Both the position numbers and the translations under genes were made by a program. DNA of 37,641 nt, from positions 1 to 37,641 of the forward strand of contig JAMPAU010000013.1 in NCBI GenBank assembly GCA_023667045.1, given 5' to 3'. The notes beneath the pieces were generated by a model. The model searched no databases and was not told where the DNA came from. It saw nothing but the letters and a program-made list of their open reading frames with translations. Source of the stretch: Ruminococcus flavefaciens. GTDB taxonomy: Bacteria; Bacillota; Clostridia; Oscillospirales; Ruminococcaceae. Below, piece by piece: positions 15,729-35,608 of the stretch (the stretch's first letter is position 1; each line of letters begins with the position of its first letter).

Positions 15729-15729
15729 A

Positions 15730-17537: not shown

Positions 17538-17553
17538 AAAATAATCCTCCGCA

Positions 17554-17865: not shown

Positions 17866-17879
17866 AATAGCACCTCTCT

Positions 17880-19442: not shown

Positions 19443-19448
19443 AATCTA

Positions 19449-22400
19449 TCAGACCTCCCTCATAGGTTCATATTTACCATCTTGATATTCATAGATCCAG
19501 CCGTTCCTCAATACCATCTTATTAGGCAGCGGTTTTTGGAACACAATATGTGGCATTGGATGTGCATTGCTATGGTTATCATAGTATGTTTTAATCGCAC
19601 CAACAATAGCGTTAAGCTGTGTTTCAAGCTTGCCTTGCCTTTCAAGCTCTTTTTTCTGCTGGATATAGTCCATATTGTCTTTTTCGGAACGATAGAACAC
19701 AGTATAAGCTCCGCTTTTACTTGCCTCTACAATTTCAATCGGTGTTTCCATATTATCTTCAACAGTAGCACCTGAATAAGCCGACTGAAAATATTCAAAC
19801 TTTGATCCTGTTCCAACAAGCAAATATCCTCTGCCATTTCCAGGCATTGTCGGGCTTGCGGCAAGGTCATTTCCAATCATTTCCTTAGATGCCTGTCTTG
19901 TAGCAACTTTCAAGCAAAGTCTGGATTTAGAATTCACACGAATATCATCGGTTATTGCACCTTCAATATTCTGAGAGATCAAAATAATATGGAATCCAAG
20001 GCTTCGACCTACTCTGGCAATCGTTGTAATCTCACCGATAAAGTCAACATCATTATTTTCTGTCGAAAAACGTTTTAATTCTGTAAACTCATCTACTACA
20101 AGAATTAAATGCGCAAGTGCATCATTCTGTGCCTGATCACGAAGCTCCTGCATCTCACGCTCAGTCAATTTATCCTTATTTTCACCACAAAGTCTGTTGT
20201 TGATAGATTTGATATGTGATTCAATATCACGACACGCTGCAATGTATCCGTTTATGCTGTCAACGTGCATGGAATTGAACAAAATCTTTCTTCTGCGGAT
20301 TTCAGAAGTAAGAGCATCAAGAAATCTCTTAAGCATATACTCTGCACCTGTGCCATTCTCATCGCCGTCAACATCGGTAACAGAACCAACAACATGTGGG
20401 AGCGTACCGATTCTCTTGATAAATCCGCCGCCCTTCATATCCACGAGCATTAGATTTACCTCATCCGGTCTAAAACACAGACACAAGCCCAGCAGATAGG
20501 AAATGATAGTCTCAGATTTACCGGAACCGGTCGTTCCGGCTACAAGCATATGAGGACCATCATATTTTTCGTGAAGATCAAGATAGGTTATTCCACTGTC
20601 AGTTTTACCAATCGGCACACCGATGGAACTTTTGACATCATAATTTCGCTTGCCATCCTTGCCTTCCCAGAATGCCTCAATATCAATTGCACCTTTTTTC
20701 AGACCAAACAATTCAAAAAGGCTGACATTTGACGGAACTTTACCATTCTGTGAAATCTTTGCGTAGCTTAATGCAGAAAGGATCTTGTACGAATTATACA
20801 GATGCTTTCTCCAGTTCTCCGAAACAGAAAACGCAAAACGCTGTGCAAGATTTTCGTCTTCATGAGGAACTAACTCCGCATAGCTTTCATGAATCGTAAT
20901 AAGATGATTACAATAATGGGGTAAATGTTCTTTGTATAATTTCGGGAAGATAAAAGTCAAACCTAATGAGTTTTCATACGGCTTACCTTCTTCCGGAACT
21001 TCAGGAAGATACTGTGCAAAAGCGTGTTCCTTAATATCGTACTCATCATAGACAATAAATACAATGTGAGGTAATCTGCTGTTTGCAGAATTTCCGATTG
21101 CTCTTTCGCCCATAATATTTAGCATATTACTAAATACAACATTTGCACCCTCTGTATTAAATACAAACTGAGATCTATCGGGAAACAAGTCTCTGAAATG
21201 GGGAAGGAACTTATATACACTAATATTTCTTTCAATTTCATTAGGATTATCAGTTCTTGGGAAGAGAACCACAAACTGAAGATCATCGGGGGACTGATAG
21301 AAACAAAGATCAAATATCATACGTTCCAGCAGAATATTGCAAGCGTTTGTATTTTGTGAAACAATACCAAGAGCACCACAATTTTTCAAAGAAAAAAGAA
21401 GCGGTGCATTCGTCATATGTTCATATTTTTTTGCGATAAAATTAGGCAGATTGCTCAGATAGAATTTTTTATCCTCAACATATCTGTAATTCTCATCCGA
21501 AGGAATAAAAAGTCTTATTTTATCGTTTTCAAAAGTGAAGTTTGCAGCTGAGAAAACTGCATCTTTTTCAGTGCCTTTGATCTCAAACATATTGTCAACA
21601 TCATTAGACAAACCGAGTCGCACGGTTAAAAAATCTCTATCAGCTAATGCTCTGCTAAATACGTTGCTTGAAATACTGTAAACGCTGCTATTCACATTAT
21701 TACTGTCAAGAATATCATTTACATCGGGATAGAGAGAATAGAGTTTTTTTACATCCAGATTTTTACGCTGCTGAATCTCTGTGATGCTTTTTGCAATATA
21801 TGCCTGATAATGTTCACGCCAGTCAAATAGACTCCGCTTATATTTCTTTTTCTGCTTTGACCAGTTTATTATCGTGGTTACCATTGTAACAGCACCCATA
21901 GTACCACTCATAAGAACCATTGACCAACCGGCTCCGCTTCCGCTTGACATTAATCCACGAACAAGAACCATTGATGAAAGCATCAAAACAGAGGGGAGCA
22001 TCATAGAAAATAGATTTTGATCGGGTTTCTGTGGCGGATCGGAGGGCGGAATAATTTCAACAGGTGTATCGTCAAACTTATACATTTGACGTGTACTGAT
22101 ATTATAATCCGGAAAAGTTATAGCTGTATTGCTTTGATTATTCGGATTAAAAGCAGGAATGATGTTTTTAGTATTAACCTCAAAGGACTGATATGACTCT
22201 GTACTGTCAAAAACAATCTTAGTGGATGTAATAAAACCAATCTCGTATAACTTTCTTCCCAAATCACTACTGCGTAAAATTACACGATTATTGCTGTCCT
22301 TGTCTGAAATCAAGGCGTTATTATGTGATGTCAATGTCAGTTTCGGGAAAATGCCTGTACTTTGATCACAAGTTCTAAGACAGTCAACATAGATACTTGC

Positions 22401-22568
22401 ACAGACTCTGTACACCTCGCTGCTGTTTCCCTTTTTCATTAAGCCATACTTAATGCCGTCAAGTAACTGCTTCAAGGTAATATCTCGCAAAACGATCAGT
22501 TCCATTACAATACTGGCACCCTGTTTATCATTAAATTGAAGTCCAATAAGTAGTTTATTACTTTCCAT
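19449..22568 (-). CDS. essC: EssC-like T7SS motor ATPase, membrane half (FtsK/SpoIIIE type)
   Basis: 1039 residues. The N-terminal 115 or so resemble a ubiquitin-like fold of the YukD/EsaB sort (tentative). Two membrane helices follow (about 188-238), then an alpha/beta region. The FtsK ATPase domain has Walker A GTTGSGKS (about 677), Walker B LILVVDEF (about 822) and the motif GRSLGFHIILISQN. The gene has a strong AGGAGG site and follows the VWA protein gene by 19 nt. It is the best single marker that this locus is a T7SS: the hexameric inner-membrane motor that moves WXG and effector proteins. Classical EssC carries N-terminal FHA domains; here an FHA-like domain lies on the next gene product. 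Confidence 0.93.
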   Translation of the reverse strand: MESNKLLIGLQFNDKQGASIVMELIVLRDITLKQLLDGIKYGLMKKGNSSEVYRVCASIYVDCLRTCDQSTGIFPKLTLTSHNNALISDKDSNNRVILRSSDLGRKLYEIGFITSTKIVFDSTESYQSFEVNTKNIIPAFNPNNQSNTAITFPDYNISTRQMYKFDDTPVEIIPPSDPPQKPDQNLFSMMLPSVLMLSSMVLVRGLMSSGSGAGWSMVLMSGTMGAVTMVTTIINWSKQKKKYKRSLFDWREHYQAYIAKSITEIQQRKNLDVKKLYSLYPDVNDILDSNNVNSSVYSISSNVFSRALADRDFLTVRLGLSNDVDNMFEIKGTEKDAVFSAANFTFENDKIRLFIPSDENYRYVEDKKFYLSNLPNFIAKKYEHMTNAPLLFSLKNCGALGIVSQNTNACNILLERMIFDLCFYQSPDDLQFVVLFPRTDNPNEIERNISVYKFLPHFRDLFPDRSQFVFNTEGANVVFSNMLNIMGERAIGNSANSRLPHIVFIVYDEYDIKEHAFAQYLPEVPEEGKPYENSLGLTFIFPKLYKEHLPHYCNHLITIHESYAELVPHEDENLAQRFAFSVSENWRKHLYNSYKILSALSYAKISQNGKVPSNVSLFELFGLKKGAIDIEAFWEGKDGKRNYDVKSSIGVPIGKTDSGITYLDLHEKYDGPHMLVAGTTGSGKSETIISYLLGLCLCFRPDEVNLMLVDMKGGGFIKRIGTLPHVVGSVTDVDGDENGTGAEYMLKRFLDALTSEIRRRKILFNSMHVDSINGYIAACRDIESHIKSINNRLCGENKDKLTEREMQELRDQAQNDALAHLILVVDEFTELKRFSTENNDVDFIGEITTIARVGRSLGFHIILISQNIEGAITDDIRVNSKSRLCLKVATRQASKEMIGNDLAASPTMPGNGRGYLLVGTGSKFEYFQSAYSGATVEDNMETPIEIVEASKSGAYTVFYRSEKDNMDYIQQKKELERQGKLETQLNAIVGAIKTYYDNHSNAHPMPHIVFQKPLPNKMVLRNGWIYEYQDGKYEPMREV

Positions 22569-22587
22569 TTAAGCCTCCTACTTGCCA

Positions 22588-24090
22588 TCAACCATTAACG
22601 GTAAAATTATGAACAATAACTGTTGTATAGTTGCCTAATAGAATTTTAGTACCTTTCATTATGGTATCCGTCTGTCCAGCTCTGAGATCATTCTTTCTTC
22701 CACCTGTCTCAACAGAAAAAATAGCTCCCTGTGCTACATTTTTAATGATAATTGTATTTAACTTCTTATCATATGTTAAAGCAAATGCATTGCGTCCAAT
22801 ACTGCTTATATCATCGTTAGTTGCATTTTCACATATAGCTCTTTGATTCTTCGGTAAAGGTGAATTATCATTTGATTTTGGCTCAAGTGTTCTGCCTACT
22901 CTAAACTCAGAGTTTATGGCAAACTGCCATAAGTCCATACCGACACCTTTCTGGTCACGCTCATCTTCTTTGCAGATCTGTACAGAAATACTGCACTTCT
23001 TCACCTTTTTCTTTTTGAGAAGAACGACTGTAATCAATGCTCCACCAACAAGGAAACATCCACCTACTATAGCAATGACTAATATAAATGGAAAACCATT
23101 CTCCTCATCATTTGCATTTGAAGCAGTTGTAGTAGAAGCTGATGTTGCTGCCACTGTGGTATCCTTTGCAGCTTCCGTAACAGAAGCAGTTGTTTGGGCT
23201 ACAATTTTTGTTTCTGTTGGCTTAGGCTCTTCGATTTCTACCTGTGGGAACATTATGGAACCTAATGAAATATTAGAACCACCGTTCTTTATGGTTACAC
23301 CTTTTAGCTCACCAGTAGTAACAGTGTTATTAAGTTTAACTTTGATCATTGAAACAGTATCCGGCTTTAATGCATCAAAGTTTGCGCCACTATTAAAAAG
23401 CGTAAATGTATTAGAACCGAGATTAGCTATTGCATTAAGATTAACATCTTGCTTCTTACTCTCGCTAACTTGAACTACATCAACATGATACCGACCATTT
23501 TCGCTGATAACACTTCTCAGATAGTCAAACGAAGTGCCTTCAACAGAATCAATTCCGTCAGTTATCAGAATTGTACGATAATACGCATCAACAGATGTGT
23601 CAGCACTTTCTGATACATTTAGGACAGCATCATACACAAGACTTGCCTGTCCCTGAAAATCAATCTTTGACAATTCATAGCTGATGAATTCCTTATCATT
23701 TGAGTATTCATCAGCAAGAATTGTTGTTTTTGTGTCAAACATAGCAATTTTGACACTTTCTGTATCAGGCATAGATGAAACATAGCTGCTGATTGCTGTT
23801 TTGACTTCATCTCTAAGGCTATAGGGCATCGATGTGGAATTGTCAACTAAGAATGTGGTCATTATTTTAACATCCGAAGCTACAGCTTCAGCAGTTAAAG
23901 TCTCGTTTCCAATCAATAAATTTGCGTTAGAATCCAATGGCTCAGATGTGAATATTTTCATTGTTTTTCCATTGTCTGCAAAATATGCCTGCAATGGCTG
24001 GACACCTTCTGCAGCAAACACATTGACTGCTGCCTGCGTCGAAACTGCAAATACCGCAGCAGCAGCAACTATAGCTTTTATCAATTTCAT
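22588..24090 (-). CDS. VWA domain - membrane helix - FHA-like protein
   Basis: 500 residues. The signal peptide (MKLIKAIVAAAAVFAVSTQA) is followed by an extracellular von Willebrand A domain with the metal site DNSTS (Asp 83) and ILITDG. Then come a Thr/Ala-rich stalk, a membrane helix (about 333-358, followed by KKKKVKK), and a cytosolic domain of about 130 residues. The latter has FHA features (FRVGRT, then GTKILLGN), but the segment that should carry the phosphothreonine-binding Ser and His reads ISSIGRNAF and is altered. It could connect outside contacts to the phosphorylation state inside, and interact with the EssC-like ATPase encoded next. Confidence 0.85.
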   Translation of the reverse strand: MKLIKAIVAAAAVFAVSTQAAVNVFAAEGVQPLQAYFADNGKTMKIFTSEPLDSNANLLIGNETLTAEAVASDVKIMTTFLVDNSTSMPYSLRDEVKTAISSYVSSMPDTESVKIAMFDTKTTILADEYSNDKEFISYELSKIDFQGQASLVYDAVLNVSESADTSVDAYYRTILITDGIDSVEGTSFDYLRSVISENGRYHVDVVQVSESKKQDVNLNAIANLGSNTFTLFNSGANFDALKPDTVSMIKVKLNNTVTTGELKGVTIKNGGSNISLGSIMFPQVEIEEPKPTETKIVAQTTASVTEAAKDTTVAATSASTTTASNANDEENGFPFILVIAIVGGCFLVGGALITVVLLKKKKVKKCSISVQICKEDERDQKGVGMDLWQFAINSEFRVGRTLEPKSNDNSPLPKNQRAICENATNDDISSIGRNAFALTYDKKLNTIIIKNVAQGAIFSVETGGRKNDLRAGQTDTIMKGTKILLGNYTTVIVHNFTVNG

Positions 24091-24112
24091 TTCTTATCAC
24101 TCTTTATATGTA

Positions 24113-25306
24113 TTAAACAGCTGATTCAAGTATTTCTCTTATTGCATCACTAAAGTCAGGCATTTCAGGAATTGAAATATCACTGATACTTTGAATAGCA
24201 ACATTTTGGAGAGGCACAGAATGAACTGTAGTATATTCGTAATTTACATTTGTTTTATCAATTTTGATAACGGTATTTGTCCCACTGCGTACTCTTACAG
24301 AAGGAACGGAAACATCATCACTCAAACTTATTTTTGATGTTATAATTTGTTCGGGAATTGATACATGACACTCTTGAACTTGGGGTAGCTTTATTGCCGA
24401 ACTCATCGTTGTAATAGAATCAATTGTGGCAATATCTATGTTCTTAATAGTAGGAACATTAACTTTTATGTCTTGCAGAACAACTTTTTCTGCATCAAGG
24501 TTAATTTTCACAGAAGTATTTGCCACATCAACACCTGGCATTTTTATCTCAACTTCTGTGGCAGTATATTGCGTTTGATTAGGAATTACTGGATCAACAC
24601 CCATTTTTGATGCTTTCTGAACATCCACGCTCACGTTATTGTATACTGCAACAGTAGGAACAACAGGAACATTTACAGAAACATCTACATTTACGGATAC
24701 AAGATTATCGTTGACCGTTAATTCCGTATTTGGCACATCTACAGCAATTTGTTGAATTGCAACATCATGAGGAGTGTATTCAATTTTTTTAGGTATCAAT
24801 AACCCATCAAAATGAGGTGTACTTTGTGCCTCAATCACTGTATCAGCATTGATTTGAGGAATCGTTATTTTTGAATTGACTGCCTCAACACTTGGCAATA
24901 CAATCTTTACTTTCTCCAAGTTTGCTGTAACATCAGCGTTCGCTGCCAGACAGTCCAACTGTGTTTTATCGACTTTTATTTCACCAATAGGTACAATCTT
25001 CACAGTCGGAACTGCCGGACAGTCTATGCTTGTTTTTGTAATCGTAATCTTCGGAAGTGCAAGTTTATCGCTGTCAATAGTATCAGCTTCCTGCAAATCC
25101 AAAGCAATGGTGTCAATTGAAACACTCGGAATCTTAGCTTCCGTCTGAATGCTTGGAGCTGATAACTGAGCATCATCCAGTTTCATATCCTTACCGCTAA
25201 CCTTAGCAAACTCGCCCTTCAGCTGCAGGATTACCTCAGTCATTTCATATTCAAAAAGTTCTTTGTTTCTCTCTACATCTGAAAGAGCAATTTGTTTGTT
25301 TTCCAT
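24113..25306 (-). CDS. V/P-repeat protein of unknown function
   Basis: 397 residues without signal peptide or membrane helix. After an alpha-helical first 50 residues, almost the whole chain is a loose repeat of short beta-strand units of the form V-x-(I/V)-P-x-(V/I), such as AKIPSVSID, VPTVKIVP, VKVNVP-like stretches and VPSVRVR, spaced about 12-20 residues. Polar and hydrophobic residues alternate within units. The last 20 residues are again helical. This suggests a long beta-solenoid or fibre. It lies between the WXG100 gene and the VWA gene. I do not recognise a family. Confidence 0.78.
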   Translation of the reverse strand: MENKQIALSDVERNKELFEYEMTEVILQLKGEFAKVSGKDMKLDDAQLSAPSIQTEAKIPSVSIDTIALDLQEADTIDSDKLALPKITITKTSIDCPAVPTVKIVPIGEIKVDKTQLDCLAANADVTANLEKVKIVLPSVEAVNSKITIPQINADTVIEAQSTPHFDGLLIPKKIEYTPHDVAIQQIAVDVPNTELTVNDNLVSVNVDVSVNVPVVPTVAVYNNVSVDVQKASKMGVDPVIPNQTQYTATEVEIKMPGVDVANTSVKINLDAEKVVLQDIKVNVPTIKNIDIATIDSITTMSSAIKLPQVQECHVSIPEQIITSKISLSDDVSVPSVRVRSGTNTVIKIDKTNVNYEYTTVHSVPLQNVAIQSISDISIPEMPDFSDAIREILESAV

Positions 25307-25339
25307 AATTAGCCTCGCTTATCGGTAAGGAACGTTTTA

Positions 25340-25645
25340 TTAGCCTAATGTATTAGGAATGTTGTCAGCAATCTGCTGGTCAGCACTCTGCATCTGTGTT
25401 GCATTCGCCCTGAGAAGCTCTGCCAGAGAATTGAGAAGCTTCGGTACAGTGGTACCCATATAGTCCTTGACGGGACCGGAAATAAATGCGTTCATCTTAT
25501 CCTTGCTGGCACCTTCCCACTGGGCAGTTGCACCGATAAAATCTGTCTCAAAAGTGTTTGCTGCGGTTGCATACTTGCCTGCAAGCTCATCAATTTGATT
25601 AGCTGCACTTTCCATCTCTGTATACTTAAAAACAATATCAGCCAT
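25340..25645 (-). CDS. WXG100-family T7SS substrate (EsxA-like)
   Basis: 101 residues, the standard length. It forms a helix-turn-helix with the hallmark QWEGASKDKM turn (Trp-x-Gly at about 43-45), acidic first helix and a C-terminal tail that continues helical (QMQSADQQIADNIP). This is the most typical WXG100 protein in the locus, and probably the main secreted small protein. It has an ideal AAAGGAGG site, implying high expression. Confidence 0.92.
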   Translation of the reverse strand: MADIVFKYTEMESAANQIDELAGKYATAANTFETDFIGATAQWEGASKDKMNAFISGPVKDYMGTTVPKLLNSLAELLRANATQMQSADQQIADNIPNTLG

Positions 25646-25663
25646 TTTAGTATCCTCCTTTTA

Positions 25664-26032
25664 TTAGTTGATTACGGATGCGGCCGCTCCTGCACCTGCT
25701 GCGTATGCTGCCGTACCGCCGGGATTTCTGTTGTTTTCACCAAGCTGTGGATCAACAGTGTTGAGAAGCTGCTGCTGGATGTTATCGAGCATAGCCTTAA
25801 TGCTTGCGGTGAGAGAGTTACCCTGATCAATGAGATTCTCGGTGATAGCAGGAAGAACCTTTGTTGTGTAGAAATCTCTGTAGCCGTTAGAAGCATCACC
25901 AGTGAAATTACCACCGGTAAGAGTGTTAAGAATACCCTCCAGCTCGCCGTTCAGTCCGTTGATCGAAGAAATGTAGGAATCAACAGAACCCTTTGCGCCA
26001 TCTACGATTGCGCTTGTAAGAATTGTAGACAT
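25664..26032 (-). CDS. WXG-like helical T7SS protein without the Trp
   Basis: 122 residues, helical hairpin type. The turn reads GNFTGDASNGYRDFY, where Phe replaces the Trp of W-x-G. The last 30 residues are Gly/Ala/Asn-rich and end in a small hydrophobic stretch. It lies 18 nt upstream of the WXG100 gene and has a good AAAGGGG site. The pairing of a typical and an atypical copy suggests a heterodimer. Confidence 0.8.
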   Translation of the reverse strand: MSTILTSAIVDGAKGSVDSYISSINGLNGELEGILNTLTGGNFTGDASNGYRDFYTTKVLPAITENLIDQGNSLTASIKAMLDNIQQQLLNTVDPQLGENNRNPGGTAAYAAGAGAAASVIN

Positions 26033-26080
26033 AGAATTTTCCCCTTTCGGTAAAATGATTTTTTGCCAGCATCCACTGAC

Positions 26081-26410
26081 TTAGAGTTGATAAGATTTAA
26101 TTGCGGTGTTAAGGTTTGCATATTCTGTAAACACCGTAGAATATGAACCTTTAACATCGGTTAGTGTGGAAGAAATATGTTCGATGACAAGTTTCTGACG
26201 ATCAAGCGGCTCAAGAAGGTTGCTTTCACAGGAACTGATGAATTTTCTTCCAGCGGGAGTATCAAATCCGCCTTTCAGAACGCCAAGCAACTCCTCTACA
26301 TCAGCACGCAAACTCTGAAGTTTTCCCGCTAACTCAGTAAAGTCATTGATTGCCTTATCAAATGCAGCCTCGTCCAAAACAATATCCTTCGACAAATCTA
26401 ACCCAATCAT
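26081..26410 (-). CDS. WXG-superfamily small helical protein
   Basis: 109 residues. The turn is KGGFDTPAGRKFISSC, again with Phe in place of Trp, followed by a long second helix. Length and pattern fit the WXG/ESAT-6 superfamily. A perfect AAGGAGGT site precedes the ATG. It is encoded directly after the TPR protein and before the other two small proteins. Confidence 0.78.
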   Translation of the reverse strand: MIGLDLSKDIVLDEAAFDKAINDFTELAGKLQSLRADVEELLGVLKGGFDTPAGRKFISSCESNLLEPLDRQKLVIEHISSTLTDVKGSYSTVFTEYANLNTAIKSYQL

Positions 26411-26434
26411 GCGACCACCTCCTTAAAATTAGTA

Positions 26435-28027
26435 TTACATACTTTGATACTCCTTTCTGCACTGCTCTATGTATTCCATTACTGCTTCCTTTTCATCCAT
26501 AACCAACAAGTTAGCCATTTCCTCTGCCTTTGCAAACTTGCCGCTTTCAGCATACATTCTCGCACGGAAAATAACAGCAAAATTGTTTTTAGGATTCTGA
26601 AGCATCTTACTTCTGTAGAAAGCAATAGTCTCAGCATACTTTTTATCAACTACATCCTTTGTATAGGTTACATCTGATTCGGAGAGTTTTTTCATGGAAA
26701 ATGCTTCAATATATCTGCCAAAATAGGAATAATAAATATTCTCGCTGTGTTTCAGCAGACCGCCAAATTTGTATGCACCCTGATAATTCTCAATTGCTGC
26801 ATAGCACGACAGAAGTATGAAGTAAAGCCTATCATAGAAATCAGCCTTTCTATCCGTTGCTGATTCGACCTTCTGATCGACAGATTTATCAGTATAAGCA
26901 ACTGTTTCATCCATCTCAAGATCAGCGAATGTACCTTCAGGATACTCACGAACAGGATTTCCGTATTCATCGTAGTAAACTTCTGCATAATCTCCTGCAT
27001 CTTCACTGATTTCACCCATAGCAATTCTTTCATCAAGCGCCGCCATATCCTCTTCAGCCATAGCTTCAATATCAATTTCACTTAAATCATCCACAGCTAT
27101 AGGTTCAGTTGGCTTTGTATTAAATACCTTTACTTCATCATTCGGTATAAGCGATTCAGCCAGTGCGATAGCTTCATCATATCGTGTCATCTTCATGCAA
27201 ACTTCAGCTGATGTAAGAATTACTTCATCCTTTTTTGAAACATCAACGGTATTGCGAAGTTCAACCATCATGTCGTAAGCACACTGGAGATGGGAAACTG
27301 CATTACTTGGATCGGTATCTGCCTTTGCAACTAGCAATGCAACCTTCTCCATTTTTAATGAAAACTGAATTTCCTCATCAATCTCTGCATATTTTTCAGC
27401 ATCTTCTATAACCTTTTCAGCCTTAGAATAATCTTTCTTTGCCATTAAAATGCTGAAATATACCATATAGCCATTAATCTCAGTGGGAGAAACCGTAATC
27501 CACTGTACCGCACACTTAGCTGCGTTTTCGTAATCCTCAGCCATCATGTAGAGTTTAATCTTTTCGGAGATAACATCCGGATTGAGTGCTGCAAGACCTG
27601 TCTTATCGGAATCCTCATATTTTTTAAAGTTAGCTAAAGCAGCTTTAACATCCTGCCGAACACTACAAAGCATTGCCATCTGATAATATAGTCTCTGCTT
27701 TGCCTCTTCGCTGCATCCCTTGATTTCAGCTTCAGCGTAAAGCTCAAAAGCCTTTCCATAATCACCGTGGAAGAAATATGCATTACCAAGATTGAATGCA
27801 TTATCTCCATTTTCAGGATCAAGTTCCATTGCTTTTTGAAAATACTCAAATGACTCATTAAACTTGTCCAACGGAACGCATACCGTGCCTGCTCTTGATA
27901 AAGCCTGTAAATCATTTGGATTTTCTTCCAGAGCCTTTCTGAACCATTCTAATGCTAAGACATAATTCTCGTTTGAGAATGCCGATTCTGCATTGATCAT
28001 GGCTTCTGTGTAGTTTTCTTGATTCAA
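26435..28027 (-). CDS. Tetratricopeptide repeat protein
   Basis: 530 residues. The first 110 contain clear TPR units (YVLALEWFRKALEENPNDLQALSRAG, then FNESFEYFQKAMELDPENGDNAFNLGNAYFF, then YGKAFELYAEAE). The remainder is helical with weaker repeats and an acidic middle section. The start codon is TTG at 28027, with a well placed GAGGTG; the nearest ATG is nine codons inside the first helix. There is no signal or membrane segment, so it is cytosolic. It may be a chaperone or docking factor for the effectors, whose genes precede it. Confidence 0.87.
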   Translation of the reverse strand: MNQENYTEAMINAESAFSNENYVLALEWFRKALEENPNDLQALSRAGTVCVPLDKFNESFEYFQKAMELDPENGDNAFNLGNAYFFHGDYGKAFELYAEAEIKGCSEEAKQRLYYQMAMLCSVRQDVKAALANFKKYEDSDKTGLAALNPDVISEKIKLYMMAEDYENAAKCAVQWITVSPTEINGYMVYFSILMAKKDYSKAEKVIEDAEKYAEIDEEIQFSLKMEKVALLVAKADTDPSNAVSHLQCAYDMMVELRNTVDVSKKDEVILTSAEVCMKMTRYDEAIALAESLIPNDEVKVFNTKPTEPIAVDDLSEIDIEAMAEEDMAALDERIAMGEISEDAGDYAEVYYDEYGNPVREYPEGTFADLEMDETVAYTDKSVDQKVESATDRKADFYDRLYFILLSCYAAIENYQGAYKFGGLLKHSENIYYSYFGRYIEAFSMKKLSESDVTYTKDVVDKKYAETIAFYRSKMLQNPKNNFAVIFRARMYAESGKFAKAEEMANLLVMDEKEAVMEYIEQCRKEYQSM

Positions 28028-28049
28028 CAGTTATCACCTCTTTAATTTT

Positions 28050-29462
28050 TTACATACCGAACACTTGCTTTTTTCCGAAATCAAGGAAATTGCCTAACAT
28101 ATCCTCAATGAATGAAGATGGCTTAGGTATTGAATAGCTATTTCCTTCACCGAATACAATTTGTGTAAGGTTGTTTATTGCTTTTTCGGTTATTTTGGTC
28201 TTAACAGTCTGCTCAATTGCAGAATATTTTGCCAAGTTTTTGAATAATGCAGATTGCGCCGCAGTTTGTGAGGAATACCACGGAGATTTCAAAGCACTAT
28301 TGAAACCATTGATCGTAAGGTTACTATGAGCAATGAATTTTTCAAAAGCTGTAGCTGTATGATTAGCAATATGGCTATCTATTCTTGTGGCAATACTATG
28401 CTTAATTGCAGTTCCACCAATAGATATACCTTGTGTAATACTACCAATAGCAAAATTCACTGCAAAGCTCTTTACAATTTCACCAGCAGAGCCATCAAGT
28501 GTTCCATTCTCAAAGTAATAATTCAAGGCTGTTACTCCTGCATTACCAGCACCATTAGCAACTCCACCAGCTAATATTTGACTCGTAATCGCAGCACCCT
28601 TTGATACATTTCCAACAGTCATAAGTGTTGTGCCAACACCGGAAGCAGCACCGGTTGCGGCGCCGGTCACGGTTCCTGATAACATACCACTTGCGGCTGA
28701 ATCGAATATTTGACCACCTGCTCCTTTGAGTGTACCATTTTCTTTATAATACTTGTACCCAGAAGTAGCACCGCTCATCGTTGCACCAACAACACCACCA
28801 ATAATTGCCCCCTTAAAGGCTAAATCGAGAATACCGGCAATTGCCACCATTCCAGCTCCTGCCGTTGCGGCAGCAAGTACTCCCAAAGCAACAACTACTA
28901 CAACTGAAATAGCTATTTTAATAAGAGCATCCTTATGTTCTTTGCACCATTCAACGGCAGAATTCCATGCCTTTGAAATCGTGTCTGCAACAGATCTACC
29001 CCAGTTGATAGCGGCATCTTTAATACTTTTAATACCTTCAACGATTTGCTGACCCTTTTCGCAGAGCCATTCACCAGCTTTTTGATACCATTTCTTTTCT
29101 TCCTCAGTCTGTGGAGGCTTTGACCAGGGGTTTACACGATAAAACTCTTTCTTGCTCTTGTTAACAGAAATGCTTACTTCATCGTCTATCTGTCTCGCTA
29201 ATTCCATAAAATCGTTGGATTTCTTCTCAATGGTTTCTAAAGCTGAAGTCTTTATTTCTTCCACTGTAATTCTCTTTTCAATTTGATTGACAGCACCTTG
29301 AAGATTGCCAGCACCACCATTCATATTGTATGTGAGATTTGTTACAGCTTGGAATGTTGAAACCATCCGTTTAGAACATTTTATAAACGATCCGATATTT
29401 GAGTGATAGTCACTGAGTACCGCACAAGTGGATAAACCACCTGAATTAAGTTCAATTCGCAT
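28050..29462 (-). CDS. T7SS effector candidate with Gly/Ala-rich hydrophobic region
   Basis: 470 residues. The N-terminal 140 match those of the proteins encoded at 30305 and 31634: MRIELNSGGL, then YNMNGGAGNLQGAVNQIEKR, then EFYRVNPWSKPP. After amphipathic helices comes a strongly hydrophobic Gly/Ala-rich region (about 185-320) with glycine-zipper-like repeats, including the twice-used motif YKYYKENGTLKGAGG / NYYFENGTLDGSAGE. The C-terminal 130 residues match no toxin fold that I recognise. The architecture fits an exported polymorphic toxin or a pore-forming effector. The AGAAGG site is good. Confidence 0.8.
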   Translation of the reverse strand: MRIELNSGGLSTCAVLSDYHSNIGSFIKCSKRMVSTFQAVTNLTYNMNGGAGNLQGAVNQIEKRITVEEIKTSALETIEKKSNDFMELARQIDDEVSISVNKSKKEFYRVNPWSKPPQTEEEKKWYQKAGEWLCEKGQQIVEGIKSIKDAAINWGRSVADTISKAWNSAVEWCKEHKDALIKIAISVVVVVALGVLAAATAGAGMVAIAGILDLAFKGAIIGGVVGATMSGATSGYKYYKENGTLKGAGGQIFDSAASGMLSGTVTGAATGAASGVGTTLMTVGNVSKGAAITSQILAGGVANGAGNAGVTALNYYFENGTLDGSAGEIVKSFAVNFAIGSITQGISIGGTAIKHSIATRIDSHIANHTATAFEKFIAHSNLTINGFNSALKSPWYSSQTAAQSALFKNLAKYSAIEQTVKTKITEKAINNLTQIVFGEGNSYSIPKPSSFIEDMLGNFLDFGKKQVFGM

Positions 29463-29474
29463 ATATCTACCTTC

Positions 29475-30293
29475 TTATTCCTTTAAAGCAACTTGCATAA
29501 CTTCTGAAATCCATTCTTTAACGAAAGAGCCATAAAGTGAATATCCGCAATTTGTATATAAGTTTCCATCTTTATCAATATGAAACGTATATAATACATT
29601 TCCTTCATCGTTGTAAAGAGCTATAACATATTCAACATCATAATTCGTTTTTAGTTCTGATCCTATTTGTATATCATCCTTATTTTCCTTTATTGCATTG
29701 ATCATTTCAGATGACATCACAAACTTATAATTATTGTCAAAATTGGTTTCAACTATTTTTTGGAATACTCCCTTATTAACAAAACCAATGCCATAGAAAT
29801 AATTAGAACCAGGAGATCTTTCAAGAAGTTGCTTTGTAATTCCGTACTTTTCTTCTATTTGAGAAAGCATTATATCAATATTTCCTATTCTTTTTATCTT
29901 ACCACCGTTCAATGTCTGTATAGTACGATAGGTATCAACCGTCCACACATCAATTATCATACCATTTTCATCCAAAAGTTCTATACTGTACCACGGTTTT
30001 TTTAGCGTAATTACGTTGTTAAGCTCAAATTGATCTGTAATCAATTTAATGTTATCAACATCCTCTTTTTTTATATCTACACTTACGGCTTCTGAGTATT
30101 CATCAGGAATCGCATCAACGAGATGAACACTATCAATTCTCGTGTAGTCAATCATGTTCGTTTCTTCCCTTTCTGTGAAAATTTCCATATCTAAATCTTG
30201 CTGATTATCCGTAGAAATATCACTTAATTCTGTGTGGCCACAGCCTGTAATCATAGCCATAACTACGAAACATATACATAATATTTTTCTCAT
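29475..30293 (-). CDS. Lipoprotein between effector genes, candidate immunity protein
   Basis: 272 residues from the ATG at 30293, chosen because GAGGA lies 6 nt upstream; GTG at 30308 and ATG at 30305 are alternatives. A lipoprotein signal (MRKILCICFVVMAMITGC) is clear. The rest is a soluble mixed fold of unknown family with two similar-looking beta-rich halves. The reading frame follows the cysteine-protease-like effector gene with essentially no gap, the usual place for a cognate immunity gene. An outer-surface lipoprotein would suit protection against an enzyme acting outside the membrane. Confidence 0.75.
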   Translation of the reverse strand: MRKILCICFVVMAMITGCGHTELSDISTDNQQDLDMEIFTEREETNMIDYTRIDSVHLVDAIPDEYSEAVSVDIKKEDVDNIKLITDQFELNNVITLKKPWYSIELLDENGMIIDVWTVDTYRTIQTLNGGKIKRIGNIDIMLSQIEEKYGITKQLLERSPGSNYFYGIGFVNKGVFQKIVETNFDNNYKFVMSSEMINAIKENKDDIQIGSELKTNYDVEYVIALYNDEGNVLYTFHIDKDGNLYTNCGYSLYGSFVKEWISEVMQVALKE

Positions 30294-30304
30294 CGTCTTC
30301 CTCA

Positions 30305-31609
30305 TCACTCAAATTCCACAGTTTGGAATGTCAATTTTGTTTTTGAAATATTTCCATCTTTTGTAACTAGCTTACCATTATCCTTTGGATCAATATAAGC
30401 TTTTCCTCCCCATGTTGACACAATCAACAATCCATCTTCCGTGACACCTGTAACTACCATTCCGTGACCACCACATACACGTTTTTTACTTTTATTTTCA
30501 TCATAATATAGAGGAAAATCCCACCCCATAACAATAACTTGTTTTCCCTCTCGTACAAGATTATCATAGTTCGTTGCTGTAACTTTTGCATTTTTTTCTA
30601 CTTTAATAGTTGCTCCACAATCACCCATATATTGTGATAGAATTGTACTAAACGATTCTGTATCTACACTATTATGATTGAGTCCATTTTGCTTTGAGTA
30701 TAAATCAACTATTACTCGATCAAAATTTAAGTTCCCATCAACTTTTCTCATTGGAAATCCGAATTTTTCATAAAATTCTTGTTCTCCATTAGGTCGATTA
30801 CAATAGTATTCCATAACAGTATTAGTTATAGCTGCATATCCACATCCATGACTGTTAAGTTCATCTAAATAGGTTTTCAATTCATCTTCTGAAAAATCTT
30901 CTTTTCCTGTATTGGCAATGATAATATCAAGATAATCACTTTCATCATCAGAGAGGTAGCCATCAATAAGAACGTTATCTGAAGGTCTACCCTGATCTGC
31001 ACCATAATAGCCATTTGAAAAGCCTGCTTTTTCGGAATTAAATACATCATCCTCAACAACTGTTGGGGTAATGGTCATATGATCCTTCCACCACTCCTGA
31101 AATCCAGCAAAAATCTCATCCATCTTATCTCTTACAGAGCTACAGAAAGATTTAATACCATTCCGCACTTTCTGGACAGTCTCAGCTATGGCATTGCCGA
31201 TTCCACACAGCCATTCCCACGCCTTTTCACCGAAAGACTTTTCAGTGTTATCTGTCTGAGGCGGTTTCGCCCATGAGTTTACACGATAAAATTCGTTTTT
31301 ACTCTTATTTACCAAACCACCGACTTTAATGTCAGTCGCAATTGCAAGTTCTATAAATCCGTTTAACTTTTTTTCAACAGCCTTCAATGCAACAATGCGA
31401 CTTTCTTCAAGCGATATTCTTTCCTCAATTTGATCTGCTGCACTTCCCAAGCTACCAACTCCACCATTCATGTTATAGGCGAAATTTCTAACTTTCTGAA
31501 AAGAAGCCATTAGAGAACTTGATTTTGATAACAAGGAGTTAATATCGGTTTGCATTGATGATATTGATGTCATACCGCCTAAACCGCCTGCATTTAATTC
31601 AATTCTCAT
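30305..31609 (-). CDS. T7SS effector candidate with C39-like cysteine protease domain
   Basis: 434 residues from the ATG at 31609 (AGG site 8 nt upstream). The N-terminal 140 form the shared export region (MRIELNAGGL; YNMNGGVGSLGSAADQIEER; EFYRVNSWAKPP). A linker leads to a C-terminal domain with the papain-like motif HGCGYAAITN (catalytic Cys 256) and GGHGMVVTGV (His 382), followed by STWGGKAYID. This is the Cys and His order of the C39/C39-like peptidases. The enzyme probably cleaves protein or peptide after export; the target is unknown. The lipoprotein encoded next may give immunity. Confidence 0.85.
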   Translation of the reverse strand: MRIELNAGGLGGMTSISSMQTDINSLLSKSSSLMASFQKVRNFAYNMNGGVGSLGSAADQIEERISLEESRIVALKAVEKKLNGFIELAIATDIKVGGLVNKSKNEFYRVNSWAKPPQTDNTEKSFGEKAWEWLCGIGNAIAETVQKVRNGIKSFCSSVRDKMDEIFAGFQEWWKDHMTITPTVVEDDVFNSEKAGFSNGYYGADQGRPSDNVLIDGYLSDDESDYLDIIIANTGKEDFSEDELKTYLDELNSHGCGYAAITNTVMEYYCNRPNGEQEFYEKFGFPMRKVDGNLNFDRVIVDLYSKQNGLNHNSVDTESFSTILSQYMGDCGATIKVEKNAKVTATNYDNLVREGKQVIVMGWDFPLYYDENKSKKRVCGGHGMVVTGVTEDGLLIVSTWGGKAYIDPKDNGKLVTKDGNISKTKLTFQTVEFE

Positions 31610-31633
31610 AAACATCACCTATCTTAAGCCTTA

Positions 31634-33286
31634 TTAATCTAATATTGAGTCTGCCCATTGAGTAATTCTGGTGATATCATCATCGTTTGAATAATGTTCT
31701 CCGCCAATTTTATAGGCTTTATCCATTAACTCACAAGCAGTGGGGAAATATTTTCTCATCTCATCCACCTTTTCAGTTTGCCCGGTCATCTTATATGAAA
31801 AATATTCAGCAAAGAATTCAGCACCTTGCTTGTTTGTCGGGTTATTACCATCGTACCAGTAATCATTTCTAAATCCAAATTCATTTTTTCCATGACCGTA
31901 ACAGTCCCCATTGTTGATAAAATTTGCCAAAGAAATTCTTTGCCCCGATACAGTATTGTTTGTGACACCTCCTATCAAATCTTCGACTGATTGATTTGGA
32001 ACATTCAATTCTATCGCATCCTTAACAGTATTGTAAATAAATTGCTCATACGGATTCAGAGTAGTCCATTTCTTTCGTCCATCCATTAAAGCATCTATAA
32101 CCTGCTGTACACTTTCATCGTTAAGATTAAAATTGCACTTTTCATTGACTGTTTTCACAGCTTTTGTAAAGTAATTCTCTGTATCACTATATAGAGCCGT
32201 GTAAAAATTATTTTCATTATCATAAGATTGAAGAAAAGACGTTATTGATTGATATCCAGTCTTTTTTTTATTCGAATCATATTCTAAATCATTATAAAAC
32301 ATTACATCATCTATATTGTGTCCGATTTCATGGAAAAAAGTAGTGTATGCCCCGTCTTTGTCCTTGATTCCGTCATCCCCACCTATATTTAGATATACAC
32401 CAGTTTTTTCTTCGTCATTGTCAAAAGGACGATAATGTGAGCCTTTTGTATATTTCCATGATTGCACTTTGCATTTAGCTATATTATCAAAGAATATTTT
32501 ATGAGCATCACCATCTGATTTATATGCTATATATTTAATATTCGAAATGTCATCATCATCAATACCGTCTCGGGAAGAATTGGTAAAAAACTTATTAATA
32601 GCTTTTGCTTCATCATCATGCATCTTCTCGTAAATGGAGTTAAATAATTCGACTTTCTTTTTATCCGAATCAGACATTGATGAATTTACTTCCGTTTGAG
32701 ACAAATAATTTAAAAACGACTGCAGTCTCGTTTTATCATCTTGACTCAATTCATCTGACTCCAGCATTTCAAGATAACGATTGCAGAGATTCTTCAGTTC
32801 TTCATCAGATAGCGAACTGTAGTCGGTTTCATTATAAACACTCCAAGTGTGATCAAAAGCATCTAACGAATCTTTTGCAACTCTGCTAAGCCAGGACTTT
32901 GCACTTGCGAACCATGCACCAAGTTGAGACGCCAAAGCTGATGGTCTTGACCACTCATTCACATCATAAAACATCTCTTGGTTTTGAGTGACCTGAGTAG
33001 ATACAGATCTGTCAGTTATTCCAACCAATTCCGTAAACCTATCAATTTTTGTCTTTGTATCAACAAGATCGCCTTTTCTCGTTTCCTCCTGTTCAATACG
33101 TGCATCAATTGAATCAACAGCCGATTGCAACAAACCAACTCCGCCATTCATGGAATGCGAGAAATTCTTCAAGGATCTAAGAGAAGATATTGATGTTTCT
33201 GATTGCGAAATCAGCGATGAAAGATTTGCGTCCAAAAGAGATGTTGAATTTGATGTATTGCTATTATTTATTAGCTCTATTCGCAT
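31634..33286 (-). CDS. T7SS effector candidate with zinc metalloprotease domain
   Basis: 550 residues. The N-terminal 120 are the most diverged copy of the shared export region (MRIELINNS; HSMNGGVGLLQSAVDSIDAR; MFYDVNEWSRPS). The C-terminal part contains the zinc site HEIGH (His 319, Glu 320, His 323) and, about 170 residues on, GAEFFAEYF, which could give the third ligand (Glu 490 or 494). This spacing resembles the gluzincin toxin group. There is no own immunity gene directly beside it. The AAAGGAG start site is strong, and the gene is second in the locus. Confidence 0.87.
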   Translation of the reverse strand: MRIELINNSNTSNSTSLLDANLSSLISQSETSISSLRSLKNFSHSMNGGVGLLQSAVDSIDARIEQEETRKGDLVDTKTKIDRFTELVGITDRSVSTQVTQNQEMFYDVNEWSRPSALASQLGAWFASAKSWLSRVAKDSLDAFDHTWSVYNETDYSSLSDEELKNLCNRYLEMLESDELSQDDKTRLQSFLNYLSQTEVNSSMSDSDKKKVELFNSIYEKMHDDEAKAINKFFTNSSRDGIDDDDISNIKYIAYKSDGDAHKIFFDNIAKCKVQSWKYTKGSHYRPFDNDEEKTGVYLNIGGDDGIKDKDGAYTTFFHEIGHNIDDVMFYNDLEYDSNKKKTGYQSITSFLQSYDNENNFYTALYSDTENYFTKAVKTVNEKCNFNLNDESVQQVIDALMDGRKKWTTLNPYEQFIYNTVKDAIELNVPNQSVEDLIGGVTNNTVSGQRISLANFINNGDCYGHGKNEFGFRNDYWYDGNNPTNKQGAEFFAEYFSYKMTGQTEKVDEMRKYFPTACELMDKAYKIGGEHYSNDDDITRITQWADSILD

Positions 33287-33324
33287 TCCTCATTCTCCTT
33301 TCATTCAAGTTTATGAATCCAATA

Positions 33325-33951
33325 CTACATATATCCTTTAAAATGATTCATCTCAAATGCACTGCTCACCATAACTTTACGCCAGTTCATTGCTTCAGCA
33401 TTAAACATACTCACCTTTGAACTCAGTTCATTAACAAGATTTGAAAGTGAATCCATCTGAGCCTGTAAATCCCTTACAGCCTGTTCCAGGCGGGCAAGCT
33501 CATTCTTAAACTGCTGCAATGCATCGGACATATTTGGATCTTCTTCTACCGACTTGCTCTTAAACACGTCAAATATGCTAGCAGCTAATACATCTGAGCA
33601 TTTCATGCTACCTTTGAAACTTTCATCCGTCTTCTGAGCATGATTATTGAAGGAGATAATAACTTCTGGAATATTCATACCACTTAAAATGCCAAACATA
33701 GATCCCCCTGTGGTCCCGCTAATTACACCAACAATTGAACGGATATCTTCTATTCTTCTTTCAAAGTTGATTTTATCGCTCATACATGACTGAATTGCAT
33801 TTTGTGCCTGTGTTTTCTCAGCAAGACAATTCTCAGCAGCTCTTGTTGCTGCATACCTTTGATTGGCTGCATTATTGTATCTGCTTTTGGACGAATAATA
33901 TTCCTCTGCAGCCTCGTCCTGACTTGGATTATACCACGACATAAAAATCAT
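33325..33951 (-). CDS. Helical coiled-coil protein, likely effector partner or chaperone
   Basis: 208 residues from the ATG at 33951 (MIFMSWYNP); an ATG at 33942 (MSWYNP) is possible. Two coiled-coil regions (about 15-80 and 145-185) flank a central segment with Gly/Ser-rich hydrophobic residues. The shape is like the helical partners encoded before LXG toxins in Firmicutes (DUF5082/DUF5344 type), though I cannot assign the family. It is the first gene of the locus. The AAGGAG site is separated from the start by a perfect hairpin, which could control or permit initiation. Confidence 0.75.
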   Translation of the reverse strand: MIFMSWYNPSQDEAAEEYYSSKSRYNNAANQRYAATRAAENCLAEKTQAQNAIQSCMSDKINFERRIEDIRSIVGVISGTTGGSMFGILSGMNIPEVIISFNNHAQKTDESFKGSMKCSDVLAASIFDVFKSKSVEEDPNMSDALQQFKNELARLEQAVRDLQAQMDSLSNLVNELSSKVSMFNAEAMNWRKVMVSSAFEMNHFKGYM

Positions 33952-33953
33952 CA

Positions 33954-33974
33954 CTTGATACAATCTGTATCAAG
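33954..33974 (-). promoter_or_regulatory. Hairpin between ribosome-binding site and start of the first T7SS gene
   Basis: CTTGATACA and TGTATCAAG pair perfectly (9 bp, 3-nt loop). The hairpin stands between AAGGAG and the ATG at 33951. Unfolded, the spacing is far too long; folded, 6 unpaired nt remain, close to optimal. It could therefore be a translation switch. It might alternatively be an operator for a dimeric regulator. Confidence 0.6.
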
Positions 33975-34068
33975 TTTACTCCTTTCTATAAAAAATAATA
34001 TATCAGTAGCAGGTATTAAACACGCTCACCGCCACATAATAAATCAAAAGTAATATATCCTACTTTCT

Positions 34069-34095
34069 CAAAAGCTGATATTTTGCGAAGGGTTC
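34069..34095. repeat. Left copy of 27-bp inverted repeat flanking the recombinase
   Basis: Exact reverse complement of 35378-35404; on the minus strand it reads GAACCCTTCGCAAAATAT and on to CAGCTTTTG. Similarity continues imperfectly for about 7 bp beyond the outer end (GGGAAGGT against GAGAAAGT). It lies between the recombinase stop codon and the leader of the T7SS locus. Confidence 0.93.
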
Positions 34096-34133
34096 ACAGC
34101 TTCTCTATTCAATTTTCAAGCTGCTTATCCGTT

Positions 34134-35207
34134 TTAAAGTTCTATCTGAACTCGTTTCATATACTCTCTCTTTTGGTCGAAAGAGCTGTGAACATACCGA
34201 TTTAGCGTGATTTCTACGGAGCTGTGCCCCAAAAGCTCGCTCAATGCCTTGACATCGAAGCCCAACTTGATGCAATTTGTAGCGAAAATATGACGCAGAG
34301 CATGAAAATGAACTGACGGCAATTTTGCGTTTTTTAAGATTGTGCGAAAACGATACTGCATTGCTCTCGGCTCTATCGGCTTTTCAGTGCCTGTCAGAAT
34401 ATATTCGTCGGGTTTACCCTTGAACTTATGCAAAAAGCCCATCATACACTCCGGAATTGGAATCTGTCTGCGGGATGATTCGCTTTTCGGGTCGGTAATG
34501 ATGAGCTTTGTTTTACTGATTCCAGTTGGCCACTGAATGCGCTGCATGGTTTTGGTGACGGTCAAAATCCGTTTTTCGAGGTCAATATCTTTCCACTGCA
34601 AAGGACAAATTTCCCCTATACGGAGTCCTGTGGTCAGAGCGATTGCTGCCCCAAGAGTGCTGCGATTCTGGTGAGTTCCAATATACTGCTGCAAGGTTTT
34701 CTGTTCCGATTCGTCAAGAAGCTGAATCTCGGGGGACTTCTTTTTCGGTACCACAATTCCGTCCATTGGATTGAAAATCTTGTAAGTTCTGACAGCATAC
34801 TTGAAAATAGTCTTCATCAGAATTATAATATCGGCTATATATCGTGGCGAAAAGCCGTTACTCTGCTTTTCGGCAATGAAGTCGTAGATATGATTGGCAG
34901 TCACGCTGCTAACCACGCTATCGCCGAAAGCTGGTAGTATATGCTTATCAGCTTTCATTGCATAGTTGGCCGCCGTGGATTCCTTCACTCGGTGCAGGAT
35001 ACTGCGATGCCATTCATTAAACAGATCTGATACGGTCAATGCACAGTATCCCTGCGGTTTATTATGCTGGCAGATAGCTTGAACACGCTCGATGCACTGC
35101 TCTTTCGTGCGGGCAAGGACATAGAGAAACGCTCTTTTTCCGTTACTTTTCTTACCATTGGGTATGCGTGATTCGTATCGCCCATCTTTTCGCAAGTAAA
35201 GATTCAT
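34134..35207 (-). CDS. Tyrosine-type site-specific recombinase
   Basis: 357 residues. It has an N-terminal AP2-like DNA-binding segment (about 1-50), a core-binding SAM-like domain (about 57-145), and a catalytic domain with Arg 196 (TGLRIGE), His 302 and Arg 305 (HALRH), His 328 (LLGHSS) and the nucleophile Tyr 338 (NRYVH). All catalytic residues are present. The start follows AAGGAGGAG and a consensus promoter at 35321-35349. The protein is of the phage/Tn916 integrase type, but the flanking sites are inverted, so DNA inversion is the expected reaction here. No terminator follows, so its message may run into the T7SS genes. Confidence 0.94.
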   Translation of the reverse strand: MNLYLRKDGRYESRIPNGKKSNGKRAFLYVLARTKEQCIERVQAICQHNKPQGYCALTVSDLFNEWHRSILHRVKESTAANYAMKADKHILPAFGDSVVSSVTANHIYDFIAEKQSNGFSPRYIADIIILMKTIFKYAVRTYKIFNPMDGIVVPKKKSPEIQLLDESEQKTLQQYIGTHQNRSTLGAAIALTTGLRIGEICPLQWKDIDLEKRILTVTKTMQRIQWPTGISKTKLIITDPKSESSRRQIPIPECMMGFLHKFKGKPDEYILTGTEKPIEPRAMQYRFRTILKNAKLPSVHFHALRHIFATNCIKLGFDVKALSELLGHSSVEITLNRYVHSSFDQKREYMKRVQIEL

Positions 35208-35290
35208 AGTAAACTCCTCCTTGATTTTTCCTTATTGTATAATAGCGACAAATTTCAAACCAAAGTATAGAAATTTTTTCACCAAGCCCC

Positions 35291-35319
35291 TTGACATTTC
35301 CTGAAAAACATGATATACT
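35291..35319 (+). promoter_or_regulatory. Outward promoter inside the invertible segment
   Basis: A perfect -35 TTGACA (35291-35296), a 17-bp spacer and a -10 TATACT (35314-35319), with transcription expected to start near 35326 going right. There is no gene to the right before the terminator at 35417-35454, so in this orientation it makes only a short RNA. If the segment inverts, it would lie around 34154-34182 reading left into the T7SS locus. Confidence 0.75.
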
Positions 35320-35320
35320 T

Positions 35321-35349
35321 AATGTAAAGTATTTGTTGAATTTTGTCAA
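35321..35349 (-). promoter_or_regulatory. Promoter of the recombinase gene
   Basis: On the minus strand: perfect -35 TTGACA (35344-35349), 17-bp spacer, -10 TACATT (35321-35326). The start would be near 35315, giving a leader of about 105 nt before the recombinase ATG at 35207. It faces and overlaps the outward promoter, so the two must compete for RNA polymerase. Confidence 0.75.
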
Positions 35350-35377
35350 GATGTGAAATATTATGCGATGGGGGTTG

Positions 35378-35404
35378 GAACCCTTCGCAAAATATCAGCT
35401 TTTG
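35378..35404. repeat. Right copy of 27-bp inverted repeat flanking the recombinase
   Basis: Reads GAACCCTTCGCAAAATAT and on to CAGCTTTTG on the plus strand and matches the complement of 34069-34095 at all 27 positions. A plus-strand terminator begins 13 bp beyond its outer end. Confidence 0.93.
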
Positions 35405-35416
35405 GGAAGGTTATCA

Positions 35417-35454
35417 GCCATACCGTTTATTGTTACGGTGTGGCTTTTGTGTTT
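35417..35454 (+). terminator. Intrinsic terminator just outside the right inverted repeat
   Basis: GCCATACCGT pairs with ACGGTGTGGC (10 bp, one wobble pair) across an 8-nt loop, followed by TTTTGTGTTT on the plus strand. There is no plus-strand gene to its left in the present arrangement. It would end RNA from the outward promoter now, or from the recombinase gene after inversion. Confidence 0.8.
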
Positions 35455-35574: not shown

Positions 35575-35608
35575 ATTTTACGGAGAGTTATAAACAGTTT
35601 GGAAGCTT

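Follow-up and report, generated by a model that had tools for sequence, protein, structure and literature searches.

The invertible segment of the Salmonella Hin flagellar switch holds an outward promoter in addition to the gene of its recombinase, whereas fim- and RecV-type switches rely on a recombinase that is encoded outside the segment or shared by several segments. The accessible part of PMC5903667, which covers some of the RecV arrangement, names Hin as an example of a recombinase encoded inside its own invertible segment. In gut Clostridia, inverton group 139 is statistically linked to invertase group 35, a tyrosine recombinase family, according to the part of PMC11892184 that was available. 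The similarly partial texts of PMC11898584 and PMC6778178 report ESX-1-associated phase variants in Mycobacterium tuberculosis via indels in homopolymeric tracts and chromosome rearrangements in Staphylococcus aureus, respectively.

Here, we compare these systems with a locus upstream of a T7SS operon in Ruminococcus flavefaciens. The window, which is the whole stretch of DNA that was analysed (37,641 bp), corresponds to the entire contig C17 of a genome of 3.64 Mb in 112 contigs with an estimated contamination of 4.84%. With a probability of roughly 0.84, we propose that positions 34069-35404 form a self-contained inversion switch, which would turn the T7SS operon ON or OFF by DNA inversion. 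The initial annotation had already read the segment in this way; its observation was confirmed and its interpretation supported as far as sequence can show.

The T7SS operon and its upstream cassette

The putative T7SS operon runs leftward from about 33942-33963 (Table 1) and combines an EssC-like ATPase with a WXG100 protein. With 473 bits for TIGR03928, the ATPase scored far above noise, yet under the curated cut-off of this Firmicutes model (778 bits), and therefore we classify the system as a divergent T7SS. Two WXG100-like proteins are encoded in the operon, and both the LXG match and one of the WXG100 matches stayed below cut-off. Three further proteins have an N-terminal stretch in common at 35-45% identity and may be effectors. 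The first ORF was called from a TTG codon at 33963, but in three of four homologues the alignment begins at residue 7-8 or beyond, which makes the ATG at 33942 the probable conserved start. A hairpin at 33953-33975 is located between a Shine-Dalgarno-like AAAGGAG and the start of this first gene (folding z-score of -2.7). Hairpins of other sequence occupy the equivalent place in the related loci L221, L223 and L224 (-1.9, -3.2 and -1.0), and L222 gave a value of +0.5. Past the far end of the T7SS genes, a GHKL histidine kinase and a LytTR regulator are encoded on the same strand (4736-6738); regulators of this type are a common target of other cassettes. A search of the window against Rfam gave no matches.

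Table 1. Coordinates of the T7SS operon, the cassette and its putative control elements in the window.
Feature	Position	Strand	Remarks
Putative T7SS operon, whole	14055..33963	-	first gene, three proteins with common N-terminal stretch, TPR, LXG-like, WXG100, VWA, EssC parts, PP2C, kinase
EssC-like ATPase, second part	17880..19442	-	aligns to C-terminal part of TIGR03928
EssC-like FtsK/SpoIIIE ATPase, first part	19449..22568	-	TIGR03928 E 2.3e-141, under curated cut-off
WXG100 protein	25340..25645	-	Pfam 34.0 bits (cut-off 27.3); NCBIfam 30.3 (cut-off 44.9)
First T7SS gene	33325..33963	-	coiled coil, 212 aa when counted from the called TTG; ATG 33942 is the likely start
Gap, left site to first T7SS gene	33964..34061	-	no site stands out as a fixed promoter
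Left recombination site, T7SS side	34062..34095	.	GCTGATA at 34074-34080 as spacer (by eye), with TTCTCAAAA and TTTTGCGAA as its arms
Invertible segment, 1.34 kb	34069..35404	.	inverted in L221
Tyrosine recombinase, 357 aa	34134..35207	-	R196 K241 H302 R305 H328 Y338
Outward promoter (putative)	35291..35319	+	z 4.7 compared to shuffles; past recombinase start, pointing out
Promoter-like site for recombinase	35321..35349	-	TTGACA-17-TACATT; z 3.6
Right recombination site	35378..35411	.	same spacer inverted at 35393-35399, by eye
Terminator-like stem	35416..35445	+	would stop outward promoter in sequenced state

The sole gene between the two sites encodes, in an intact frame, a tyrosine recombinase. 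The complete set of catalytic residues ascribed to it earlier is indeed present (Table 1), as read from motifs and from an alignment (E 1.3e-18) with 6en0, an Int protein of solved structure. Its Pfam matches are Phage_integrase (7.5e-29), Phage_int_SAM_3 and Phage_int_M; no serine recombinase family is among them, so that the protein is not a member of the Hin/Gin family. The nearest solved relative by sequence is the Int of PDB 6en0/6emz (residues 100-353).

The perfect 27-bp inverted repeat described before was recovered as the inner 27 nt (34069-34095 and 35378-35404) of full arms that extend over 34 nt and are 94% complementary. The flanking inverted-repeat score of the window was 28, compared to a best score of 15 in a chance control of 129 non-recombinase ORFs (330-450 aa) from the same loci, none of which reached the threshold of 17. 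A 25-nt piece of the repeat, allowing up to three mismatches, occurs in the window's genome at the two sites only and was absent from the 98 relatives searched (1 of 99 genomes; R. flavefaciens UBA2946, our G424, was outside that set). The statement that the segment contains nothing besides recombinase and promoter stands with regard to genes, as the other ORFs listed overlap the recombinase, but it left out a second promoter match (11/12) on the plus strand at 34801-34829, which is located inside the recombinase gene and reads in the same direction as the outward one.

Right of the switch, four palindromes AACGGAAAnnnTCCGTCA are present at 35607-35783, spaced by 46-60 nt from start to start and without other exact copies in the genome. 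The same side of the cassette contains two of them in L054 and one in L221, together with a conserved block CGAGTAATATATGATACTGATACCC closer to the switch. The palindromes are perhaps operator sites.

At the right end of the segment, the outward promoter could be confirmed as an extended near-consensus match (TTGACA-17-TATACT with TG), as could the terminator just outside the right repeat, which has a stem of 11 pairs. Promoter matches between 33200 and 36000 were not above chance (11 versus 8.2 +/- 2.8 in shuffles) and the case for the outward promoter therefore rests on conservation; both assignments are putative consensus matches that are strengthened by their conservation throughout the family. 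After inversion, the promoter would be located at 34154-34182 on the minus strand and would face T7SS with a leader of roughly 185-205 nt, in agreement with the earlier prediction.

Transcription of T7SS solely from a fixed promoter left of 34069 had been named as an observation that would speak against a switch. No promoter-like minus-strand site stands out there, and the stretch that separates the site from the first gene gave z-scores of -0.9, -0.2 and -0.7 in the window, L221 and L225. Three switch-less T7SS orthologues, L222, L223 and L224, which lack a recombinase match in the stretches fetched (1.8, 11.4 and 4.6 kb upstream), had best promoter-like sites with z-scores of 2.3, 5.3 and 5.0 within 450 nt upstream, and 11, 0 and 0 of 300 shuffles were as good. 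The site of L222 is weak, and that of L223 depends on the length searched, being missed at 300 nt (z -0.8) and found at 450 nt. For the window, the upstream z-score was -0.2 as sequenced (171 of 300 shuffles as good) and 4.2 after in-silico inversion.

Based on these parts, we propose that strand exchange by the recombinase probably takes place in the 7-nt spacer that both inverted sites contain, whereby the whole 1.34-kb segment would turn round, recombinase gene included. In the sequenced state, the outward promoter would fire to the right and meet the terminator, and T7SS would get at most read-through from the recombinase. The designation of this state as OFF or basal seems adequate, and read-through could make it basal rather than strictly OFF. 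In the inverted state, which is the one found in UBA2946, the same promoter would fire into the T7SS operon (ON). The inversion would be carried out by the recombinase of the cassette itself and would be expected to take place in growing populations, with T7SS expression following the orientation.

Layout of the cassette family

Matches to the recombinase were detected in 73 of 297 genomes of the family (E 1e-40) and in 35 of 100 genomes of the genus (1e-60), and genome_contigs contained 48 loci, some of them distant. The fetched sample comprised 155 distinct homologues, 119 of which were no shorter than 330 aa and had over 350 nt of sequence to either side. A flanking inverted repeat (score of at least 17) was found for 84 of the 107 homologues with at least 33% identity, leaving 23 without a recognisable repeat, and for 1 of 12 below 33%, as compared to 0 of 129 control ORFs. 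In a fasttree phylogeny of the 119 recombinases, the repeat label was clustered (18 changes versus a shuffled mean of 29.7), but it did not form one clade; therefore, losses, or degenerate sites missed by the score, are common.

Most family members have an outer arm TTTCGnAAA, a motif that had itself guided the site scan, and a similar, less conserved inner arm. Both site copies were scorable with equal spacer length in 62 of 97 elements. The spacer was identical in 50 of these 62, and we counted 55 different spacers. Because the repeats were detected by their agreement, the identity of the two copies is in part a product of the method, which does not apply to the variety from one element to another. 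The window is outside the 62 scored elements, its two copies having come out of the scan with different lengths.

The genome of the window carries nine cassettes, one of them with a recombinase ORF of just 295 aa, and also nine repeat-less homologues with 24-35% identity, some at contig ends. Homologues in viral_contigs (L288, two in L289, L290) are likewise located between inverted repeats, and the exact 22-nt site was absent from viral_contigs. Plasmid and phage records with a homologue numbered 13 and 10, all with less than 60% identity. Tandem cassettes about 0.5 kb apart with different spacers occur in L229 and L289, the viral_contigs record having the same pair (87% over 3 kb).

The layout was compared in 93 elements. 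Segments had a median length of 1,384 nt (10-90% range 1,301-1,431), with median gaps of 159 nt on the 5' side and 69 nt on the 3' side of the recombinase. The first ORF leading away within 450 nt was found on the 3' side only in 48 elements, where the promoter faces away (OFF), on the promoter side only in 15 (ON), on both sides in 19 and on neither in 11. From the recombinase stop to 25 nt past the far site, no terminator was found in 88 of the 93 elements, window included, and one was found in five; therefore, the sequenced state may be leaky, with basal read-through possible.

Together with the promoter-like site that faces the recombinase gene (Table 1), this missing terminator would also fit a reversed polarity, or a switch with no clean OFF, in which the recombinase promoter reads into T7SS as sequenced and inversion alters the strength or couples T7SS to recombinase expression. 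Against such an arrangement, an inward site with a z-score of at least 2 was present in only 15 of the 93 elements compared to 90 with an outward one at the 5' end (outward at the 3' end: 4), and terminators are concentrated beyond the promoter end, in a position that would stop the outward promoter. Within 200 nt beyond the promoter-end site, a terminator was present in 25 of 37 elements whose neighbour there faces the cassette and in 8 of 34 with a gene leading away; beyond the 3' site, the count was 3 of 67 with a gene leading away. L221 and L151, both turned forms, have the terminator on the opposite side. We consider the reversed or leaky arrangement unlikely.

Orientation of the cassette at orthologous loci

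The nearest cassette with T7SS among the genomes searched is that of UBA2946. Its orthologous cassette is turned at the orthologous T7SS locus (L221/L055), and hence the inverted form, whose absence from related genomes had been named as an observation against a switch, does exist. When L221 was compared to the reversed window, plus-strand matches covered the outer flanks (72% over 221 nt; 81% over 205 nt), whereas the inner segment aligned on the minus strand with 78% over 1,292 nt; the strand changes at the repeats. The T7SS homologues are in the same order, from the first gene through the second ATPase part. Since the segment is inverted in UBA2946, the outward promoter faces T7SS there. 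Judged between assemblies, the cassette is one whose putative promoter takes both orientations at one locus, and the flipped form in a related genome suggests that the bacterium probably switches its T7SS by turning DNA.

The recombinases of both strains are 85% identical and UBA2946 is another species-level genome; the comparison therefore tells that the segment has inverted after the two diverged, but not how often, and the inversion is either old or recurrent. Both genomes are draft assemblies, and that of the window shows one orientation only. A locked relic, i.e. a past inversion after which the cassette became fixed in each lineage, would be in agreement with this single orientation per assembly at the locus and with the 23 of 107 homologues without recognisable repeats, but the recombinase frame is intact and the inner 27 nt are perfect. 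Moreover, the spacer copies agree within each genome and differ between window (GCTGATA) and L221 (GCCGATA, both by eye), as expected with ongoing exchange. This agreement favours recurrent inversion, and we regard a relic as quite unlikely.

Opposite orientations were also observed at other loci, in all cases between assemblies or contigs. Both flanks matched for L067/L068, which are two contigs of one assembly (94-96%), and for L060 and L062 versus L141; one flank matched for L151/L152 (92% over 2,996 nt), L160 versus L239/L261, and others. A flank match near the site was found for 134 pairs, which are not independent events. Of these, 13 matched on both flanks (4 in opposite and 9 in the same orientation) and 115 on a single flank (30 opposite, 85 same); six mixed ones, all with L142, were set aside. 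One-flank opposite pairs could reflect moved rather than turned cassettes. L142 itself has a 181-bp inverted repeat; on either side, the repeat apparently extends into the beginning of a gene for a secreted protein (912 and 2,079 aa; signal peptide by eye), which suggests a choice between two surface proteins.

Targets of the cassettes and comparison with known systems

The nearest relatives of the window cassette adjoin other operons, encoding an FHA protein with PP2C-like and kinase-like proteins in L053, a dynamin-like protein in L054 and a dockerin protein in L056. It is very unlikely that the cassette is a solo integrase, a minimal mobile element with inverted ends that serve its transposition and with T7SS as an accidental neighbour: the recombinase is of integrase type and the cassettes next to these different operons seem to get around, but orthologous loci keep both flanks with the inner segment alone turned, the sites are inverted rather than direct with no second gene inside, and the common outward promoter and outside terminators are unneeded for transposition. 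As for an integrative mobile element with direct att repeats and cargo, the sites are inverted and no other gene lies inside. In the upstream sequence of switch-less T7SS loci, similarity to the window starts only at about the first gene, which makes insertion boundaries unreadable.

A second T7SS subtype is present in L225, with an EssC part that is 37% identical to that of the window. The head of this operon carries a cassette with a 72% identical recombinase, oriented as in the window. EssC matches were found in 31 of 100 genomes, and a cassette near T7SS in 3 of the 25 genomes with fetched T7SS stretches, some of which stop short of the operon head.

To describe the targets, we took the first ORFs of at least 120 aa, called without annotation; the Pfam and PADLOC tallies are based on the first 900 aa of longer targets and each cover the 25 families listed first, out of 119 and 90, respectively. 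The Pfam matches listed among 101 first target genes comprise LytTR response regulators (18), dockerin (4), BspA-type LRR (4) and dynamin (2), as well as helicase/restriction, lectin and glycosyltransferase families. The PADLOC model matches listed for first targets include BrxA, AbiLi, type II/IIG enzymes and DrmD. All of these are putative family-level assignments, which do not amount to proof of systems. A fixed promoter (z of at least 2) was also present in 17 of 69 target gaps, 12 of them before LytTR regulators; therefore, the switch is not always the sole control and, where a fixed promoter exists, probably adds to another one.

On the non-target side of 11 of 97 cassettes, we observed a closely related small Cro/XRE-like gene (69-100% identity) that always leads away. 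It is located at the promoter side in L226, L233, L230, L144, L235, L228, L060, L062 and L068, and at the other side, with the cassette turned, in L141 and L067. A palindrome ACTCA-n-TGAGT is found between site and gene in 8 of these 11. Four more cassettes have weaker Cro/XRE-like matches, one of which points toward the cassette.

We see about even odds for a broader proposal, namely that Ruminococcus and its kin use a portable one-gene inversion cassette with private sites as a general bet-hedging module before many unrelated contest, surface and regulatory operons (at least two T7SS subtypes, LytTR, restriction/BREX-like). The roughly nine cassettes that a genome can contain, each with its own spacer, would then switch independently. 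A subset would act as a two-output toggle, in which the same promoter could reach the small Cro-like regulator on the non-target side in the other state.

If the inversion switch of the window is true, its T7SS would be randomly switched in a fraction of cells, predicting mixed armed and unarmed populations, and such random switching may explain why T7SS of this kind are hard to see expressed. As the recombinase moves together with its switch on a single 1.3-kb piece that has its own private site pair, the family would provide many compact inversion switches for study or as tools. It also offers a prediction, from sequence only, of phase-variable operons in rumen and gut Clostridia.

The initial annotation had compared the locus to switches of the fim and clostridial RecV type. 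This likeness holds for the tyrosine recombinase, the short inverted sites and the promoter in the segment, but, unlike in fim and RecV, each switch of the window family has one recombinase, which is encoded inside the segment, and the nearest precedent is Hin. As in the flagellar switch of Salmonella, the recombinase gene of the window is part of the invertible segment; in contrast, Hin is a serine invertase, whereas the window cassette encodes an integrase-type tyrosine recombinase, with different sites in each cassette. The Int of 6en0/6emz, which we take to be that of Tn1549, is a conjugative-transposon integrase and serves a large mobile element, whereas the window recombinase belongs to a one-gene inversion cassette. 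The two examples of inverton group 139 located by coordinates in the available part of PMC11892184 have about 205 and 227 bp between repeats, which is too short for a recombinase gene. The ESX-1 variants of M. tuberculosis resemble the window in that phase variation touches T7SS, but, as far as the accessible text of PMC11898584 goes, they arise by indels and not by promoter inversion.

In line with the earlier view that a T7SS made phase-variable by inversion would be new, none was found in the literature searched, a collection that lacks most subscription papers and preprints. Likewise, no description of the Ruminococcus cassette family was found in the titles and abstract starts of this literature, or in the available parts of PMC8138268 and PMC11868660. 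The invertible-promoter switch and the Hin-like layout are known, and it is the family-wide spread of the cassette and T7SS as its target that are new as far as this literature shows.
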